From positions 62,001-126,000 of the forward strand of contig CAJXSL010000012.1 in NCBI GenBank assembly GCA_913060875.1: a stretch of DNA of 64,000 bases. The letters run 5' to 3'. Origin of the DNA: an uncultured Desulfobacteraceae bacterium. GTDB taxonomy: Bacteria > Desulfobacterota > Desulfobacteria > Desulfobacterales > UBA5852. The position numbers and the translations under genes were made by a program. Shown in pieces: positions 604-14,589 of this stretch. How positions within the stretch are numbered: the first letter of the stretch is position 1; the number at the start of each line of letters is the position of its first letter. Under the pieces are notes generated by a model, which made no database searches, was not told where the DNA came from, and saw only the letters and a list, made by a program, of their open reading frames with translations.

Positions 604-1992
604 TCAGGCGTCGATGACTTTATTGAGATCGATGCCGTATTTGCGCATCCGGTTCCATACCGTGACCCGGTTGATGCCCAGGAGGCGGGCGGCCTGGGTC
701 TGGTTGCCGCCGGTTTGGCGCAGGGCGTCGACCAGGGCCTGTTTTTCCGCCCCTGCTCCGCCCGGTCGGCCGCCCCCCTGGATGCTGAGGGTTGAAGGTG
801 TCTCCGCAGCCGGTGTCGGAAGGTGCTCGAGGTCGATCTTGCCCTTCTCCGCAATCACGAAGGCGTATTCCAGCGCACTTTTGAGTTCGCGCACGTTGCC
901 CGGCCAGGTGTAGTCCATCAGGTGCCGCAGGGCGCCGGACGTCAGGCCGGTGATGGCTTTTCCGGTGCGTCCCCTTAGCCGCTGGACAAAGCTGTTGACC
1001 AGCAGCGGGATGTCTTCCCGCCGTTCCCGCAGGGGGGGGATGCGTATGGGGATCACATTGATCCGGAAATACAAATCCTCACGAAACTGCTGCTGTTCGA
1101 TCAAGCTGACCAGGTTCTGGTGGGTGGCCGATATGATGCGGACATCCACATCCACGGAGCGGTGGTCGCCCACCCGTTCGATCTGCTTGTTTTCAAGCAC
1201 CCGCAGCAGCTTGACCTGGACCGACAGAGGGATATCACCGATTTCGTCCAGGAAGATCGACCCGCCGTCCGCGGCCTCAAAGCGTCCCGTACGATGGCGA
1301 TAGGCGCCTGTGAAGGCGCCCTTGATATGGCCGAAGAGTTCGCTTTCCAGCAGCGCGGCATTCAGGGCGGCGCAATTGAGCTGGACATAGGGGCCTTTTT
1401 TACGGTGTCCCCGTTCATGGATGGCCCGGGCTACCAACTCCTTGCCGGTGCCGCTTTCCCCTAAGATGATCACCGGCGCGTTGCTCTGGGCCGCCTTTTC
1501 CACCACCTGGAACACCTTGCGGATGGCGGGCGAGGTGCCGATGATGCCATGCTGCTCCCGATAGTCGTTCAACTGACGGGAGAGGAGTTCCACCTGCTGG
1601 TCCAACCGGTCGATTTCGCTGATGTCGGTGATGGTTTCCACGGCGCCGAGAACCGTACCGTCATCGTCTCGCAGGACCGATGCGTTTTTGAGGGCCGGCA
1701 GGCAGGTGCCGTCCTTGCGGACGATGCCGCAGCGGCAGCGGCGCATATCCGGGTGGTTGGGCAGGAACAGTTTGCACCATTCGCCGGGCCGGTTGTGGAG
1801 GGTCTGCTCACAGGCATCGCACTCCAAAAGGGTGCAGGACTTGCCGATGGCTTCGCCGGCACTGTAGCCGGTCAGGCGCTCGAAGGATTTGTTGACCATC
1901 AAAATGGTCCCTTCCGCGCTGATCAGCATCAGGCCGTCATTCATGGTGTTGATGATGCGCTTCCAGTAGCGGCTGATGTCTTCGCTCTTCAT
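604..1992 (-). CDS. Sigma-54-dependent transcriptional activator with Cys-rich PAS domain
   Basis: This is a 462-residue bacterial enhancer-binding protein. An N-terminal PAS domain (about 8-125) is followed by a short coiled linker, then the AAA+ domain with Walker A GESGTGKE (about 178), the sigma-54-contacting GAFTGA loop (about 224) and Walker B. A Fis-type helix-turn-helix lies at the C-terminus (about 420-455). The PAS domain carries seven cysteines in 45 residues (C53, C58, C61, C73, C86, C88, C97), which suggests a metal, Fe-S or thiol redox sensor. It is divergent from the redox operon starting near 2.2 kb, which has a -24/-12 promoter and phased upstream boxes. It is therefore the likely activator of that operon and perhaps of the flavodoxin gene to the left. 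Family assignment is secure; signal and targets are inferred. Confidence 0.93.
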   Translation of the reverse strand: MKSEDISRYWKRIINTMNDGLMLISAEGTILMVNKSFERLTGYSAGEAIGKSCTLLECDACEQTLHNRPGEWCKLFLPNHPDMRRCRCGIVRKDGTCLPALKNASVLRDDDGTVLGAVETITDISEIDRLDQQVELLSRQLNDYREQHGIIGTSPAIRKVFQVVEKAAQSNAPVIILGESGTGKELVARAIHERGHRKKGPYVQLNCAALNAALLESELFGHIKGAFTGAYRHRTGRFEAADGGSIFLDEIGDIPLSVQVKLLRVLENKQIERVGDHRSVDVDVRIISATHQNLVSLIEQQQFREDLYFRINVIPIRIPPLRERREDIPLLVNSFVQRLRGRTGKAITGLTSGALRHLMDYTWPGNVRELKSALEYAFVIAEKGKIDLEHLPTPAAETPSTLSIQGGGRPGGAGAEKQALVDALRQTGGNQTQAARLLGINRVTVWNRMRKYGIDLNKVIDA

Positions 1993-2420: not shown

Positions 2421-2469
2421 ATCGGACCGCATTTTCCTTGTGAGCGGGTTAAACGACGGGAGGATATAT

Positions 2470-3390
2470 ATGGATTTGAGCCGAAGAGGGTTTTTTAAAG
2501 TCATGGGGGCCACCGGGGCGGGCCTGGCGGCTTCAAACCGACCGGCCCGGGCCTGGCAGTCGCGGGCGCCGGAGGACCCCTACGGATGCCTGGTGGATCT
2601 GACCCGCTGCATCGGCTGCCGCAAATGCGAGCAGGCCTGCCAGGCGGTCAATGGCCTGCCGGAACCCGAAATGCCGTTTGATGATCTGACGGTTCTGGAC
2701 CGCAAGCGCCGGCCGGATGAAAAGAGCTTCACAGTGGTCAATCGCTACTACTCCGGCAAGATCGACGAGCGCGACCAGCTGATCCCCACCTTTGTCAAGA
2801 TCCAGTGCATGCACTGCCAGGATCCGGCCTGTGCCTCGGCCTGCATCGTGGGTGCCTTGACGAAAAAAGAAAACGGTGCCGTGGCCTACGACGCCAGCAA
2901 GTGTATCGGGTGCCGTTACTGCATGGTGGCCTGCCCCTTCGAGATCCCGGCCTATGAATATCACGATCCGATAACGCCCCGGGTGATGAAGTGCACCTTC
3001 TGCTACGAGCGGGTCGCCGAGGAGGGCAAGCTGCCTGGTTGCGCCCAGATCTGTCCGGTGGAGGCCATCACCTTCGGCAAACGGTCCACTCTGCTGGAAG
3101 TCGGCCACAAGCGCATCAAAGACAACCCCGGGCGTTACATCGATCATGTTTATGGTGAACATGAAGTGGGTGGCACCAGCTGGATGTATATTTCAGATCA
3201 GCCCTTCGAGAACCTCGGGTTCATCCAGGTGCCGGAAAAGCCCCTGCCTCAGTTGGCCGAAACCATCCAGCATTCCCTCTTCAGCTACCTCTGGTCCCCC
3301 ATCGTCCTTTTCGGCATGTTGAGCGGCGTCATGTGGGGGTTCCGGAACAAAGGCGACCGTGACATCGACCATGAAGGAGAGAATTCATGA
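2470..3390 (+). CDS. HybA-like periplasmic ferredoxin subunit with Tat signal and C-terminal anchor
   Basis: This is a 306-residue electron-transfer subunit. The start at 2470 has a GGGAGGA ribosome binding site; an ATG 30 nt upstream in the same frame has none. The N-terminus is a twin-arginine signal ([15 protein letters not shown]). Four cysteine groups follow (C-x2-C-x2-C-x3-C types near [35 protein letters not shown], and CTFC with GCAQIC), enough for four [4Fe-4S] clusters as in HybA/DmsB proteins. A hydrophobic segment near the C-terminus ([17 protein letters not shown]) would anchor it in the inner membrane. It overlaps the NrfD-like gene by 4 nt. It likely passes electrons between the quinone-interacting membrane subunit and the multihaem cytochrome downstream. 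Confidence 0.9.
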
Positions 3391-4592
3391 GCCATTCCTC
3401 AAGCCCGATACGGGCCAAGTTCTGGACACCCGGCGTGGTCGTGCTGGCCTTCCTGATGGCCGCCGGGGCCGTGACCATCGTTGCCCGCTATATCGGCGGC
3501 ATCGGCTATGTTTCCAATTTAACCACGGCACGCCCCTGGGGATTGTGGATCGGCGTGGATGTGGCTTCCGGTGTGGCCCTGGCGGCCGGCGGCTTCACCA
3601 CCGCCTTTCTGGCCCACATCGTCAGCCGCCACTACTATGAACCCGTGGTGCGGCCGGCCCTGCTGACCGCCATGCTGGGGTACACTTTCGTTGTCCTGGG
3701 GCTGCTGGTGGACATCGGCCGCTCCTGGGCCATCTGGAAGCCCATGGTGTTCTGGAACCCGAACTCGGTGTTGTTCGAGGTGGCCATGTGCGTCATGTTT
3801 TACCTCAACGTGCTCTACCTGGAGTTCGTGCCCATCGTGGTGGAGCAGTACAAGGGACGGGTCAATCTGCCCGGACCCCTGGCCGCGCTCAACGGTCCGG
3901 CCGAGGGGCTGCTGAAAATCGCCGACCTGATTACCGGCAAACTGATGTGGATATTCATTATCCTCGGGGTGGTGCTCTCCTGCATGCACCAGTCCAGTCT
4001 GGGCTCCCTGATGTTGATTGCCCCGACCAAATTGCATCCCCTCTGGTACACGCCGATCTTGCCGCTGCTTTTTCTGACCTCGGCCATTGCGGTGGGCTAT
4101 CCCATGGTGGTGTTCGAAACCACGCTGGTGACATCCTCCCTCAAACTGGATTCCGAGATGGACATCCTGGCGCCCCTGACCCGTTTTACCGTATTTTTGC
4201 TCGGGCTCTACCTGGCCCTGAAAATTGGCGACTTGGGGGTGCGCGGCACCTACGTCTATCTGCTCGACGGCACGGCCCAGACCAACGCCTTTCTGGCGGA
4301 GATCATCCTGGGGGTGATCGTGCCCTGGGTCATGCTCGTGCTGCCCAGGGTGCGCCAGTCCCGACGCGGCCTTTTTATCGCCAGCAGCCTGATCGTGGGC
4401 GGTGTGCTCTTGAATCGCGTTAATGTCTTCGTGGTGGGTTACCGTCCGCCCATCAGCGAGGCCAACTACGCGCCGGCCTTCGGCGAAATCCTGGTTACCG
4501 TCGGGCTCATCGCGGGCCTGATGTTCCTATACCGTTTTCTGGTGACCTATCTGCCGGTGTTGAACCGACCGAAACAGGAGGTGTCGGCATGA
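3387..4592 (+). CDS. NrfD/HybB-type integral membrane subunit
   Basis: This 401-residue protein has about ten hydrophobic segments and the family pattern of HybB/NrfD quinone-interacting subunits ([20 protein letters not shown] near residue 45-65, and a conserved [17 protein letters not shown]-like region). These proteins exchange electrons and sometimes protons between menaquinone and a periplasmic ferredoxin subunit. Its ATG overlaps the previous gene (ATGA), and its stop overlaps the start of the cytochrome gene, so the three are almost certainly translationally coupled into one complex. Direction of electron flow cannot be read from the sequence. Confidence 0.9.
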
Positions 4593-6694
4593 TCAACAAG
4601 TCGTCTATCGTTTTATGTTTAATGCTCCTGGTGGGAATCAACGGCGGCCTGGTCGCCCTCCCGCCGGGCAGTCCCGGAAGTGTTGCGGCCTATGCCGCAG
4701 CGGCCCAGGACAAGCCTGCGCCGGAGCCGGAGGCCAAGGCCTGGACCGCCCCCGACCAGGAAGCCGCCCTGGCGCGCGCCGCCGAGACGGTGCCCTTCGT
4801 CGAGGCCGTGATGGACGAGTGCAAGCTTTGCCGTCAGATGCGGCTGCGTGAAACGGGTTTGAGCACCAAGGACATCACGCACAGCTACTTCGTCCTCAAC
4901 AGCCCTATCATCAACAAGGTCGAGGACCACTACGGGCCGGTGCGCTTCATGCACAGCAAGCATGCCGCGCAAATCCAGGATTGCGCCATGTGCCACCATT
5001 ACCGTCCCCTGGATGCCGACGCCAAGGAAACCACCCGTTGCTCGGCCTGCCACCAGGAAGCCTTCCGCCCGGAGCACCCCGAACGCATCGGTCTGAAGGC
5101 CGCCTATCATCAGCAGTGCATGGAATGCCATCGGGACATGAACCAGGGACCGGTGGACTGCATCGGCTGCCACAACAAGAACGTGCCCGACCACAAGGAC
5201 AAGGTCCAGCTGGCCGCCAATCCGACGCCGTTCCAGGTGACGGCCGAGTGCCTGCGCTGCCACGAGGCGGCCGGCCAGGATATGCTCAAAACCGCCCATT
5301 GGCTATTGAAAGGCCCGTCCCCCTACACGTTGGGCCACCGAAAGGAGGTTGAGATCGGCAAAAGCACCATTGCCACCAACAACTTCTGAATGAGCATCGC
5401 CAGCAACGAGGCTCGTTGCACCAGTTGTCACGTCGGCTATGGATGGAAAGACGAAACTTTTGACCACACGGATATGACCAAGATCGATTGCCTGGTGTGT
5501 CATGACACCACCGGCACCTACAAAAAAAACCCGACAGCGGCAGGCATGCCCGATCCCAAAGTGGATCTGGTAAAGGTGGCTAAAAACGTGGGGCCCACCT
5601 CCCGGCGCTCCTGCGGCGAATGTCACTTCAACGGCGGCGGCGGCGAGGCGGTCAAGCACGCCGATCTCTCCCGCCAGTTGCTGACGCCGGACCGCAATTG
5701 CGACGTTCACATGGGTGGTTACGATTTTCAGTGCACCGAGTGCCATCGCACCCGCAATCACAAGATCGCCGGACGCAGCTCTTCCGTGGCTGTGGTGGAG
5801 GGCAGTTTTTCCTGCGAAAAATGCCACACCAGCAGCCCCCACCACGGGGATGATCTGCTGGATCATCACCTGAACAAACACAGTCAGACCATCGCCTGCA
5901 ATACCTGCCACTCACCGGTCTATGCCAAGTGCAAGCCCACCAAGGTCTCCTGGGACTGGTCCAAGGCCGGCGACAAGGAGCGCAAACCCAAGAAAGATAA
6001 ATACGGCATGAAGGACTACCACTGGAAAAAGGGTGAGTTTCGGTGGAAAGAGTCTGCCAAGCCCGTCTACACCTGGGACAGCGGCTTTACGAAGCGCGTG
6101 CTGATTGGAGACAAGGTGGATTGGCGGTCGGGGCCGGTCAACATCTCGGAGCCCGTCGGTTCCATCAACGATCCCAACTCCAAGATCGCGCCTTTCAAGA
6201 TCATGGCGGGGGTCCAGGCCGTGGATGCCGAACACGACTACCTCCTCGTCCCCCATCTCTTCCCCCGCGACAAGGAGGATAAGACCGCCTACTGGAAAAA
6301 CCTTGACTGGCAGAAGTCATTCGCCGACGGGATGAAGGCCGCCGGCCTGAAATACAGCGGCAAATACGAGTGGACCTCTTCGCAGATGTACTGGCGGGTG
6401 GAGCACGAAGTCATGCCCGCCCAATCGGCCCTCTCCTGTGTCCAGTGCCACGCCAGCCTGCAATCCGAGCGCACCTGCGACCGCTGCCACCAGGACAGCC
6501 GTGAGGTGGACTTCAAGAAGATTGCCCACAAGGGGACCGACTTCAGCTACATGGCCTCCCGGGGGCGTGATGTCAGCGATCTGATCGGTACGACGGACTA
6601 TATCGACTTCAAGGCCCTGGGCTACAAGGGCGATCCCATTATTCACGGCGGCCGTTTCAAGAAGCTGCCCATGGGGTATAAAGCTAAAAAATAA
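4589..6694 (+). CDS. Multihaem cytochrome c selenoprotein, octahaem tetrathionate reductase-like (in-frame TGA read as Sec267)
   Basis: Two ORFs (4589-5389 and 5390-6694) lie in the same frame, separated by a single TGA. Read through, they give 701 residues with a signal peptide and 13 CXXCH motifs. The N-terminal part (about 85-220) has four CXXCH (CAMCH, CSACH, CMECH, CIGCH) in a class III cytochrome-like pattern with upstream histidines. The rest, starting at CLRCH, resembles the octahaem tetrathionate reductase (OTR) family, including N-N-F-X-M-S-I and CTSCHVGYGW around the TGA. As I remember the family, a Cys usually occupies position X, so TGA would encode selenocysteine in its place. 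A SECIS-like hairpin follows at 5403-5419. The second half alone would start at an ATG with no ribosome binding site or signal peptide, which argues against two genes. The protein is probably periplasmic or exported, and may reduce a sulfur or nitrogen oxyanion; the substrate is unknown. Confidence 0.85.
5387..5419 (+). promoter_or_regulatory. In-frame TGA (Sec codon) and SECIS-like hairpin
   Basis: TGA at 5387-5389 is followed at 5403-5409 and 5413-5419 by GCAACGA and TCGTTGC, a perfect 7-bp stem with loop GGC (5410-5412). The loop starts 20 nt after the TGA and begins with G, as expected of bacterial SECIS elements (small G-containing apical loop roughly 16-37 nt after UGA). The stem lies inside the coding sequence for SNEARC, just before the CTSCH haem motif. 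Confidence 0.8.
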
Positions 6695-11000: not shown

Positions 11001-12047
11001 TCAGGCCGTGCTCATTTGGGGTGATGGGTCGGTCCGGCCGTGTTGCTTCGCTGCCGGCATGCGGGTGTTGCCGCTCCAGTGCACAGTATCCGGATCGACC
11101 CCCGAATGTCGGGCCGCATCGGCCAGGCGTTCCATGGTGTCCTGGGTGAGGAGCGGCTGGTGTTTATACGGCCAGTCGCGATCCAGACGCTGGTACTTGT
11201 CCTGGCAAAGATTGTTGAAGGCGCACAGTTCCCAGCGGGCGACAAGCCCTGGTAGATGCGCGCCTATCCACTGCCCGATGCCGACGATGCTGGCGGCTGT
11301 CGCCGTGGCGTCCGGGATGACCGGCGTGCGGATCCACAATTCCTGCGGGGAAACACCGGATTCCATGCGGGTCCCGATGGTTCGCAGGTTGTCCAGAATC
11401 TGTTCGTTGGAGCGGCCGGTGAACCGGCGGTGGCGCTCCGGATCGATTTCTTTCAGGTCGTAGAGCACCAGATCGGTATGGGGCAGGACATCCGCCAGGG
11501 CCGCCGCCGGAAAACACCCGCAGGTATCCACGGCCGTGTGGACACCCTCCTGCTTCAGGGCTTTCAGAAAGGCGGACAGGAAGGGCGCCTGGAGGAGGGG
11601 TTCGCCGCCGCTGGCCGTGACACCGCCATTCGACCGGGCGAAATAGGCGCGGTCTTTGAGAACTTCCCGCACCAGATCATCCAGGCCCCAGCGGGTGCCG
11701 ATTATTTCCATGGCGGTGGACGGACACTCGGCGGCGCATTCGCCGCACAGGGTGCAGCGGCCGCGGTCGATCACGATACCTTCGGCCGTAAGGTCCAGGG
11801 CTGACTCTGGGCAGACGGTGCAACAGGTGCCGCATCCGATACAGCGGCTGGCCAGCCAGTGCAGTTGCGGCCGGGCGGAAATGCTTTCCGGATTGTGGCA
11901 CCAGGCGCAGGCCAGGCTGCAGCCCTTGAAAAAGACGGTGGTGCGGATGCCCGGACCGTCCTCGGTGGATAGCCGCTGGATTTCGAACAGCATGGCGTCC
12001 GGACCGGTTGGTTTGCGGCTGGATCGATGAAGATCGTTTGCATGCAT
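11001..12047 (-). CDS. Glycyl radical enzyme activase (radical SAM)
   Basis: This 348-residue protein generates the glycyl radical on its partner using S-adenosylmethionine. The radical-SAM motif C43-x3-C47-x2-C50 follows DGPGIRTTVFFKGC, the standard activase signature. A ferredoxin-like insertion with two cysteine groups (CIGCGTCCTVC and CTLCGECAAEC, about residues 70-115) carries two auxiliary [4Fe-4S] clusters, as in activases of glycerol dehydratase or decarboxylase type enzymes and unlike PFL activase. The SAM-binding ASGGEPLLQ motif is present. It lies 25 nt downstream of the glycyl radical enzyme, with CAGGAAA as ribosome binding site. Confidence 0.95.
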   Translation of the reverse strand: MHANDLHRSSRKPTGPDAMLFEIQRLSTEDGPGIRTTVFFKGCSLACAWCHNPESISARPQLHWLASRCIGCGTCCTVCPESALDLTAEGIVIDRGRCTLCGECAAECPSTAMEIIGTRWGLDDLVREVLKDRAYFARSNGGVTASGGEPLLQAPFLSAFLKALKQEGVHTAVDTCGCFPAAALADVLPHTDLVLYDLKEIDPERHRRFTGRSNEQILDNLRTIGTRMESGVSPQELWIRTPVIPDATATAASIVGIGQWIGAHLPGLVARWELCAFNNLCQDKYQRLDRDWPYKHQPLLTQDTMERLADAARHSGVDPDTVHWSGNTRMPAAKQHGRTDPSPQMSTA

Positions 12048-12072
12048 GATGGTTTCCTGCCGGAGCCCTCGG

Positions 12073-14589
12073 TTAATACCCCTGATGGCTCACCCGTTCG
12101 ATGACTTCGTTTTGCAGCTCCTTGCCGATAGCGGTGAAATAGGCATTGTAGCCGGTGATACGCACCAGCAGATGGGGGTAGTCCTGGGGATTCTGCTGGG
12201 CATCCCGCAGCATGTCCGGATCGAGCATGTTGACCTGGAGGCAGGTGCCCCCGTTTTCGGCATAGCCCTGGAGAAAGGCTTTGAACTTGGCCTGATGTTC
12301 GGGATCGCGGATGATGGCCGGGTGAAAGGTGATGGTATGGCTGGCACCGTTGGGCAGACAGTTGAAGGTATCGCCCCAGTCCGCCCGTCCGTCCCCTGAC
12401 CGTCCGCCCAGGACCTTGCCCACCGAATTGGCATTGGCCGTCGGTCCCTTGATGTCGGCCCCGTTGGACGGGCAAATGGCGTTGGACAGGAACTGTCCCC
12501 GGGGGCGGCCGTCGGCGCTGGCGGCCATGACGAATCCGTCGCCGGCCCAGTAATTCCAGCTCAGCATGCCGGGCCGGAACTGGCGCTTGGTGGATTGGGT
12601 GCGGTGCTGCCAGGTCAGGTCACACCAAAGATCCATCACCTTGCGGGCCATGACGTCGGCCGCGTCATCGTCCCGGCCGTATTTGGGCGCTTTGTTGCGG
12701 GCCGTGGCCTGGAGCACTTCAAACCCCTGCCAGTTGGCTTTCAAGGCGTCGATCAGTTCGGCCAGGGTGCATTTATGGTTATCGAAAACCAGGTATTTAA
12801 TGGCCAGCAGGGAGTCCACGGTGGTTGCGAACGTTACGGCTTCCAAGGTGGTAAAGCTCAGTTCCGCGCCACCCCGGGTAACGTCCAATCCTTTTTCGGC
12901 GCAGCCCCGGACCAGGCAGGAGAGGTAGGGGGTGGGAAAAAAGCGCGCCCGGGCGGATTCCGAAGCCTCGTAGGTATCCACGCATTTGCGGATAATATAG
13001 TCGGTCTGGGCCTCGTAGGCGTTCCAGAAATCTTCCCATCGGTCAAAAGTTGCGGCGTCCCCGGTGGCGGGGCCGTCCTGTTGAATCGGTTCGGTCTTGC
13101 CGGTCATGGGGTTGGTGAAAGGCAGCAGGTCCCGGCCGCCGGTGAGGGCCAGCTCCACGGCCTTCAACAGATTGAGATTGTTGTCCACCGTACCGGAGCG
13201 GTCGTTGCCCACCATGGTGTTTTCCAGGCATCCCACCGGAGCGTAGTCATGGACGTTGTCCGGGCGGATCATGTGGCGGCAGCCGCCGCGTTCGGCCTCG
13301 CGCATCATGCCGGCCATGGCGCGTTCATCGAAGTTGAGCAGAAAGGGGGCGCCCTGGCTGCCGGAAATCATGCCGACCACCTTGTCCAGAAGCTCCGGCG
13401 GTGAGTTGCGGTGCAGGCGGACATTGGGCTTGGGCTCCAGGATGGGGGACATTTCGTCGATAACCTCGAGGATGGCATAGGTCAGATCGTTGGTCATGTC
13501 CTGGCCGTCGGGTCCCAGTCCGGCCAGGGTGATCAACTGGCCGAAGCCCGAGGTGATGCCCTGGCGGCCGTTGCGGATCATGGCGTCGTACACCGTGTTG
13601 CAGTGGATCCAGAAGCACTTCAGGACTTCCTTGCCGAACGCGCGGTCCATGCCTTCCTTCAGGGCGGTTTGCCAGTAGGGCAGCAGGTATTGGTCGATGC
13701 GGCCGAAGGAGACGCCGGGGCCGGGGTAGTTTTCGTCGCTCATGATCAGCATGTGATTGAGCCACAGGGCCTGCACCGCTTCCCAGAAGGTGCGCGGCGG
13801 TTCCCAGGGAACCCGTTTCAGATTGGCGGCCATCTGGCGCAGTTCCTCTCGCCGCTGGTCATCGGTGGCTGTTTGGGCCATTTGACGGCAAAGGTCGCCA
13901 TAGGCCGCCGCCAGGTCACGCGGCATGGTGGCGGCCGCCATCATGGCCCGCAGCTGGGCGCCCCGGGGCCCCATCTGGTCTTCCGGGCTGAGGCTTTCGT
14001 AGCAACGGGACAAATCCGCATGGATGCCCTGCCAGCCGATTTGCAGGGCCCGGGCGTGGTCCGGCACGAGATGTCCGCTGGTGGCGCCGGTGTTGCCGTA
14101 GCCGTGATCATGAAACCATTTCATGCGGGCCCGGGCGCCGTTACTCCCCAGAAGGGCCTCGTCGAAGGTCTTCTGTTCCGTTTTGGTAAGGCACAGGGAG
14201 GTTTGCAGGTTGAAGCGGGCGCCGGCCAGAAGATCGCCGGGGAGAATTTCACGGGGGACGTGGTTGACCATGACCTCCCGGACGAACCAGGCTCGCCGCT
14301 CGGGCAGTGACCAGGACCAGAATGCCTCCGGAAGATCGACGTCGCGGGCGGCCTGGCGGAAGGACCCCCGCAGGGTTTGCAGCAGGGTATAGGTTTCCGG
14401 AACGATGTAGAAGGTCATCTCGTTGAACTGCACGTCCCAGGGCGTTCCGGTGGACCAGGCCAGAAACTGGTTGTTCCACTTCCGGTCGGCGCCCTTGAAA
14501 TAATATTCCCGCAGCCACGCGATGCGCGGCGACAGCTGACCGGGCGCTTTCAGCGGGGGGCTTTCCTGGAATTGAACGGCGGTTGTCAT
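12073..14589 (-). CDS. Glycyl radical enzyme of unassigned substrate (CxE type)
   Basis: This 838-residue enzyme has the PFL-like domain and a C-terminal glycyl loop (V-R-I-T-G-Y-N, radical Gly813). The active-site cysteine loop reads V-R-G-C563-A-E565-K-G. The C-x-E arrangement is typical of glycyl radical dehydratases, lyases and decarboxylases (choline lyase, propanediol/glycerol dehydratase, 4-hydroxyphenylacetate decarboxylase), not of pyruvate formate-lyase (C-C). No HpdC-like small subunit is encoded nearby, so hydroxyphenylacetate decarboxylase is unlikely; arylacetate decarboxylases or C-S/C-N/C-O lyases remain possible. An AGGAGGTG ribosome binding site precedes the ATG. It is preceded by a GntR/FCD regulator and followed by its activase and a flavoprotein, giving a substrate-inducible catabolic operon. 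Confidence 0.92.
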   Translation of the reverse strand: MTTAVQFQESPPLKAPGQLSPRIAWLREYYFKGADRKWNNQFLAWSTGTPWDVQFNEMTFYIVPETYTLLQTLRGSFRQAARDVDLPEAFWSWSLPERRAWFVREVMVNHVPREILPGDLLAGARFNLQTSLCLTKTEQKTFDEALLGSNGARARMKWFHDHGYGNTGATSGHLVPDHARALQIGWQGIHADLSRCYESLSPEDQMGPRGAQLRAMMAAATMPRDLAAAYGDLCRQMAQTATDDQRREELRQMAANLKRVPWEPPRTFWEAVQALWLNHMLIMSDENYPGPGVSFGRIDQYLLPYWQTALKEGMDRAFGKEVLKCFWIHCNTVYDAMIRNGRQGITSGFGQLITLAGLGPDGQDMTNDLTYAILEVIDEMSPILEPKPNVRLHRNSPPELLDKVVGMISGSQGAPFLLNFDERAMAGMMREAERGGCRHMIRPDNVHDYAPVGCLENTMVGNDRSGTVDNNLNLLKAVELALTGGRDLLPFTNPMTGKTEPIQQDGPATGDAATFDRWEDFWNAYEAQTDYIIRKCVDTYEASESARARFFPTPYLSCLVRGCAEKGLDVTRGGAELSFTTLEAVTFATTVDSLLAIKYLVFDNHKCTLAELIDALKANWQGFEVLQATARNKAPKYGRDDDAADVMARKVMDLWCDLTWQHRTQSTKRQFRPGMLSWNYWAGDGFVMAASADGRPRGQFLSNAICPSNGADIKGPTANANSVGKVLGGRSGDGRADWGDTFNCLPNGASHTITFHPAIIRDPEHQAKFKAFLQGYAENGGTCLQVNMLDPDMLRDAQQNPQDYPHLLVRITGYNAYFTAIGKELQNEVIERVSHQGY

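Follow-up and report, generated by a model that had tools for sequence, protein, structure and literature searches.

The cytochrome locus described here raises the question of whether a single in-frame TGA ends one gene and precedes another, or whether it is a codon within one gene, and, in the latter case, what the residue inserted at this position does in the protein. We examined it in the window, which is the whole analysed stretch of 64,000 nucleotides from an uncultured Desulfobacteraceae bacterium, together with relatives from public genomes.

One reading frame across a TGA

Two open reading frames share one frame, at 4589-5389 (266 aa) and 5390-6694 (434 aa), and their sole divider is the TGA (Table 1). 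As the frame is otherwise open from 4589 to 6694, the first-pass annotation was right in describing one gene split in frame by a single TGA, and translation and motif counting reproduced the 701 residues and 13 CXXCH motifs that it had given for the read-through product. A strong ribosome binding site, AGGAGGTG, lies ahead of the gene, the start of which overlaps the stop of the upstream NrfD-type gene. In a profile search, the protein scored 494 bits with the octahaem tetrathionate reductase (OTR) family TIGR04315, for which the cut-off is 375, so that the family named in the earlier annotation was the correct one. The homology to the Shewanella OTR (1SP3) spans residues 202-622 with an E value of 7e-117. 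Eight CXXCH motifs belong to the OTR region (residues 221, 277, 301, 342, 382, 409, 437, and 617), and an extra one is found at residue 630. The stretch from 4589 to 6694 is thus one gene, in which a c3-like tetrahaem domain is fused to an OTR domain and which encodes 13 CXXCH motifs. An annotation stopping at the UGA would cut such a protein into two pieces.

Table 1. Coordinates of the features discussed in the text, given as positions in the window.
Feature	Position	Strand	Basis and remarks
Divergent PAS sigma-54 activator	604..1992	-	Sigma54_activat, PAS, HTH_8; kept in many relatives
HmcB/HybA-like ferredoxin subunit	2440..3390	+	HmcB model 365.9 bits (cut-off 420); kept in relatives
HmcC/HybB-like NrfD-type membrane subunit	3387..4592	+	NrfD domain; HmcC (267.7 bits, cut-off 550) and HybB-type models below cut-off; kept in relatives
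Whole predicted selenoprotein gene	4589..6694	+	701 residues with TGA read as Sec; c3-like domain and OTR domain
c3-like tetrahaem domain	4889..5188	+	approx. residues 101-200; Pfam Cytochrom_CIII; resembles the last (C-terminal) domain of HmcA
OTR domain	5192..6457	+	approx. residues 202-623; TIGR04315; 1SP3, E 7e-117
UGA codon, predicted Sec267	5387..5389	+	aligned with Cys64 of Shewanella OTR (1SP3)
Type I SECIS hairpin GCAACGA-GGC-TCGTTGC	5403..5419	+	encodes SNEARC; agrees with the SECIS rules
CTSCH attachment motif of haem 2 (catalytic in OTR)	5417..5431	+	1SP3 alignment; the hairpin 3' arm ends with its first codon, TGC

An arrangement of two separate genes, in which the TGA would be a true stop and a second cytochrome would start by termination-reinitiation, could make use of the ATG that follows immediately 3' of the TGA, at 5390. 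However, relatives encode Ile, Val, or Met directly behind the TGA, and this second start is therefore not conserved. Moreover, the TIGR04315 domain continues across the TGA, the Cys homologues are single proteins, the second part would be devoid of a signal peptide, and the conserved hairpin downstream of the TGA would be left unexplained. We therefore consider two separate genes very improbable.

The predicted selenocysteine codon and its hairpins

In the alignment with 1SP3, the TGA stands opposite Cys64, within the motif NNFC and ten residues ahead of the second haem motif, CTSCH. We take Cys64 to be located at the active site of the Shewanella enzyme. When the relatives were examined codon by codon, the aligned codon was TGA in 75 and TGC or TGT in 83 genes of the confident set, to which these counts refer; the whole survey also held a few distant or partial matches, one of them with Ala. 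An alignment to OTR-family cytochromes had been proposed as a check, and it placed Cys opposite the TGA in the relatives as well as in 1SP3, not another residue that would have spoken against selenocysteine (Sec). A pseudogene or a sequencing error, with the TGA arising from a recent nonsense mutation or from faulty assembly, has nothing specific in its favour, apart from the fact that single in-frame stops are common in pseudogenes. It is at odds with the recurrence of the identical TGA in dozens of independent genomes and assemblies, where the sequence is conserved to either side of it, and neither TAA nor TAG was seen at this site in the confident set. We regard this explanation as extremely improbable.

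The genome also encodes the machinery for which the first-pass annotation had suggested a search: a tRNA-Sec (75.6 bits, TCA anticodon), selA, a selB above the cut-off, and two selD genes (L076 and L077). Each of these selD genes contains an in-frame TGA, and their products are probably selenoproteins themselves. Judged by comparison with the relatives, UGA 267 is almost certainly decoded as selenocysteine. Two distant OTR-like matches in two further genomes (L173 and L174), in which a TGA is present but the NNF motif and both of the hairpins described below are missing, were set aside; they represent a different Sec site or broken frames.

A hairpin of 7 bp with a GGC loop had been reported 20 nt after the TGA. 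The hairpin itself stands, whereas the 20 nt are the distance to its loop, and the stem begins 13 nt after the TGA. The bacterial SECIS model, as set out in a 2026 review, comprises a loop of 3-9 nt, a stem of 4-16 bp, a G in the first two loop positions, a spacing of 16-37 nt, and an MFE of <= -7.5 (PMC13188914). The hairpin of the window, termed type I, agrees with every one of these rules by its 3-nt loop starting with G, its 7 bp, and its spacing of 20 nt, and the 48 nt that follow the Sec codon have an MFE of -10.5 kcal/mol. The claim of a bacterial SECIS geometry was thus confirmed.

The type I hairpin is identical in 41 of the 42 genes of this type. As covariation says little about an invariant stem, we used synonymous-site entropy in place of base-pair covariation. 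Six out of 137 conserved degenerate codons had zero entropy, i.e., no synonymous variation, and these six are precisely the hairpin codons (S, N, E, A, R, and C). Across 116 genomes, there are 19 copies of the 17-mer that forms the hairpin, each of them in an OTR gene and with a TGA 13 nt upstream (19/19), and the reversed control pattern of the 17-mer was found in none of these 116 genomes. The hairpin is far beyond chance.

Other Sec-OTRs (33 genes) have a different hairpin, CTGGTGC-AGGT-GCACCAG, with an onset four bases further on than in type I. This type II hairpin is unrelated to type I by sequence and serves the same Sec site in other lineages. One compensatory change, from C-G to U-A, was found in the clade L116-L118, and one genome (G064) has a gene of each type (L087 and L117). 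The 3' arm of either hairpin is built from codons of the haem motif, namely TGC for type I and TGC ACC AG for type II. The 5' side goes together with residues that are rare in the Cys forms (SNEARC or NWCRC versus SNEPRC or NWPRC). The residue encoded by the loop follows the state of the site, being mostly Pro in Cys forms and Ala or Cys in Sec forms. A hairpin that sits on haem-attachment codons and is accompanied by the exchange of a neighbouring Pro to Ala or Cys would be a case of an RNA shaping a protein.

With respect to the position of the residue in the enzyme, the second haem of OTR, which is the catalytic one, has a conserved Lys as its ligand (PMC11024163). The equivalent residue of the window protein, K356, a putative haem 2 ligand, is aligned with the AVK of 1SP3 and is invariant in 14 aligned sequences. 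Sec267 is very likely located at the catalytic haem, its proximity to haem 2 being read from the 1SP3 alignment, and homology would make it redox-active beside this haem. An AlphaFold prediction based on 14 aligned homologues had a mean pLDDT of 41 and was too poor to use. Almost every member of the family has either Cys or Sec here, which suggests a chemical role.

Exchange between selenocysteine and cysteine

After masking of the Sec region, the tree shows at least seven exchanges between Sec and Cys on well-supported branches and ten by parsimony, and the type II hairpin requires at least two changes. Desulfobacter vibrioformis and Desulfospira (L020 and L021) have Cys inside a Sec clade. 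In another gene (L106, genome G261), a TGT codon for Cys is followed by a perfect type I hairpin, which probably reflects a recent change from Sec to Cys that left a fossil SECIS. With its at least seven alternations in organisms of which almost all retain the Sec machinery, two unrelated hairpins, and one Cys gene with a perfect hairpin, the family constitutes a natural experiment on the reasons for using selenocysteine.

Loss of the Sec machinery was considered as the cause of the Cys forms and rejected. A selA gene was found in 49 of 53 genomes with a Sec-OTR and in 71 of 74 genomes with Cys-OTRs only; the four genomes with a TGA-OTR and no selA match are all drafts of 81-92% completeness. 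As the Cys-only genomes keep selA as often, machinery loss does not explain the choice between Sec and Cys.

A tentative and rather doubtful idea is that Sec and hairpin form a short transplantable cassette. A tract of approx. 45 bp, with the Sec codon, the SECIS, and the catalytic haem motif, may have been copied between paralogous OTR genes, so that a Cys enzyme would become a Sec enzyme in a single step, and elsewhere the same site would have gained an unrelated hairpin. One Sec gene among Cys sisters (L096) is 98% identical to the clade of the window over 15 codons around the site and 82% identical to its sisters, and it alone of the 44 genes in its clade uses an AGY serine codon in CTSCH; another gene (L019) shows the reverse pattern. 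As identity gains of similar size were found elsewhere in some genes, these patterns are suggestive only.

Paralogues also exist in the genome of the window itself. A second Sec-OTR (L078:6373-8000, contig C8) has no c3 domain and carries the same type I hairpin; this locus possesses its own divergent sigma-54 activator and, downstream, a gene for a thiosulfate-reductase-like cytochrome b. A third OTR paralogue (L079, contig C16:74390-75697) has Cys at the site.

Operon, proposed reaction, and known systems

The genes for the ferredoxin subunit and the NrfD-type membrane subunit directly precede the cytochrome gene, and most relatives that share its architecture and have sufficient flanking sequence retain this arrangement, regardless of whether they contain Sec or Cys. 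The partners resemble HmcB and HmcC of the Hmc complex, and the c3-like domain resembles the final one of HmcA; an OTR domain, however, stands where the Hmc complex has the 16-haem HmcA. The HmcA model matched 91 residues only, with 68 bits against a cut-off of 400, and as the HmcA, HmcB, and HmcC models all scored below their cut-offs, we refer to the operon as Hmc-like and not as Hmc. The divergent sigma-54 activator is likely the regulator of the operon. Its PAS domain contains a cysteine cluster that is possibly a redox or metal sensor, and a similar-looking cluster is present in the activator beside the second Sec-OTR. Elsewhere in the window, at 11001-14589 on the minus strand, there are genes for a glycyl radical enzyme and the corresponding activase, and an arylsulfatase-like gene is located close by. 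The enzyme and the activase fit no named equivalog; the nearest ones, such as sulfopropanediol and hydroxyproline dehydratases, are far below the cut-off.

Taking codon, hairpin, gene order, and alignment together, we think that the best explanation, with a probability of roughly 0.9, is a secreted Sec-containing cytochrome with hairpin-directed decoding that would belong to an Hmc/Hyb-like quinol complex and carry Sec at catalytic haem 2. SelB and tRNA-Sec would decode UGA 267, directed by the downstream hairpin, and the comparative data point to one secreted cytochrome as the product. Gene order and families suggest that this cytochrome is probably the periplasmic catalytic subunit of the complex, and that electrons could pass from menaquinol to the NrfD-type subunit, the ferredoxin subunit, the c3-like domain, the OTR haems, and finally the substrate. 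Sec267 would replace the conserved Cys of the family beside the Lys-ligated haem 2. It would probably act as a nucleophile or redox partner that attacks an S-S bond, such as that of tetrathionate, and the resulting Se-S adduct could be re-reduced via haem 2. We propose this attack on a polythionate sulfur because of the analogy to the Cys-based tetrathionate chemistry of TsdA, the reaction of which is described as passing through a cysteine S-thiosulfonate intermediate (PMC4423706). We give a polythionate-type substrate an even chance.

Alternatively, the UGA could encode Sec while Sec267 is not a catalytic nucleophile but an axial ligand of a haem or a protectant against oxidants, the substrate being nitrite, hydroxylamine, or another compound. 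Besides tetrathionate, the Shewanella OTR also reduces nitrite and hydroxylamine (PMC4484225), its physiological role has been termed cryptic (PMC11024163), and Sec alternates freely with Cys, all of which would fit such a role. However, Lys already serves as a ligand of the catalytic haem in OTR and has an invariant counterpart in the alignment with the window protein. Sec267 is therefore less likely a haem ligand than a nucleophile adjoining the haem, and the near-universal Cys or Sec at the site also speaks against this alternative. We consider this alternative possible and rather unlikely.

Sec-bearing members of TIGR04315 are already known but barely described, and the gene of the window is a well-supported further member. 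The 2026 review lists TIGR04315 as a selenoprotein family, 'GenBank annotated', with WP_331457571.1 as an example that shares the family and the single Sec with the window protein (PMC13188914); this entry is a table line, and the line itself is silent on architecture, hairpin types, operon, and any exchange of Cys and Sec. In the papers searched, neither the two hairpins nor the repeated Sec/Cys exchange, the fossil SECIS, or the fused quinol complex was described. The Sec-OTR variant is common in sulfate-reducing bacteria, and the cultured relatives Desulfosarcina widdelii and D. alkanivorans (L011/L012) have the same gene. It would place selenium beside the catalytic haem of a respiratory cytochrome that is widespread in Desulfobacterota.

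Among known SECIS elements, that of E. coli fdhF (GGTTGCAGGTCTGCACC) has GGTGCAGGT...GCACC in common with the type II hairpin, whereas the type I hairpin of the window is unrelated to it in sequence; both OTR types differ from fdhF by a 3' arm made of haem-motif codons. An earlier predicted Sec-containing multihaem cytochrome is ExtKL of Geobacter (GSU2937-2936), which is likewise a c-type selenoprotein encoded by a gene split by a stop codon (PMC5877670). ExtKL differs from the window protein in having five haems and in belonging to another family (NF040886) and another gene cluster. The OTR of Shewanella oneidensis is homologous and shares the eight OTR haem motifs and the conserved Lys. It has Cys64 where the window protein has the predicted Sec, whereas the window protein adds an N-terminal c3 domain and a further haem motif and is encoded together with a quinone subunit of the NrfD type and with a ferredoxin subunit.
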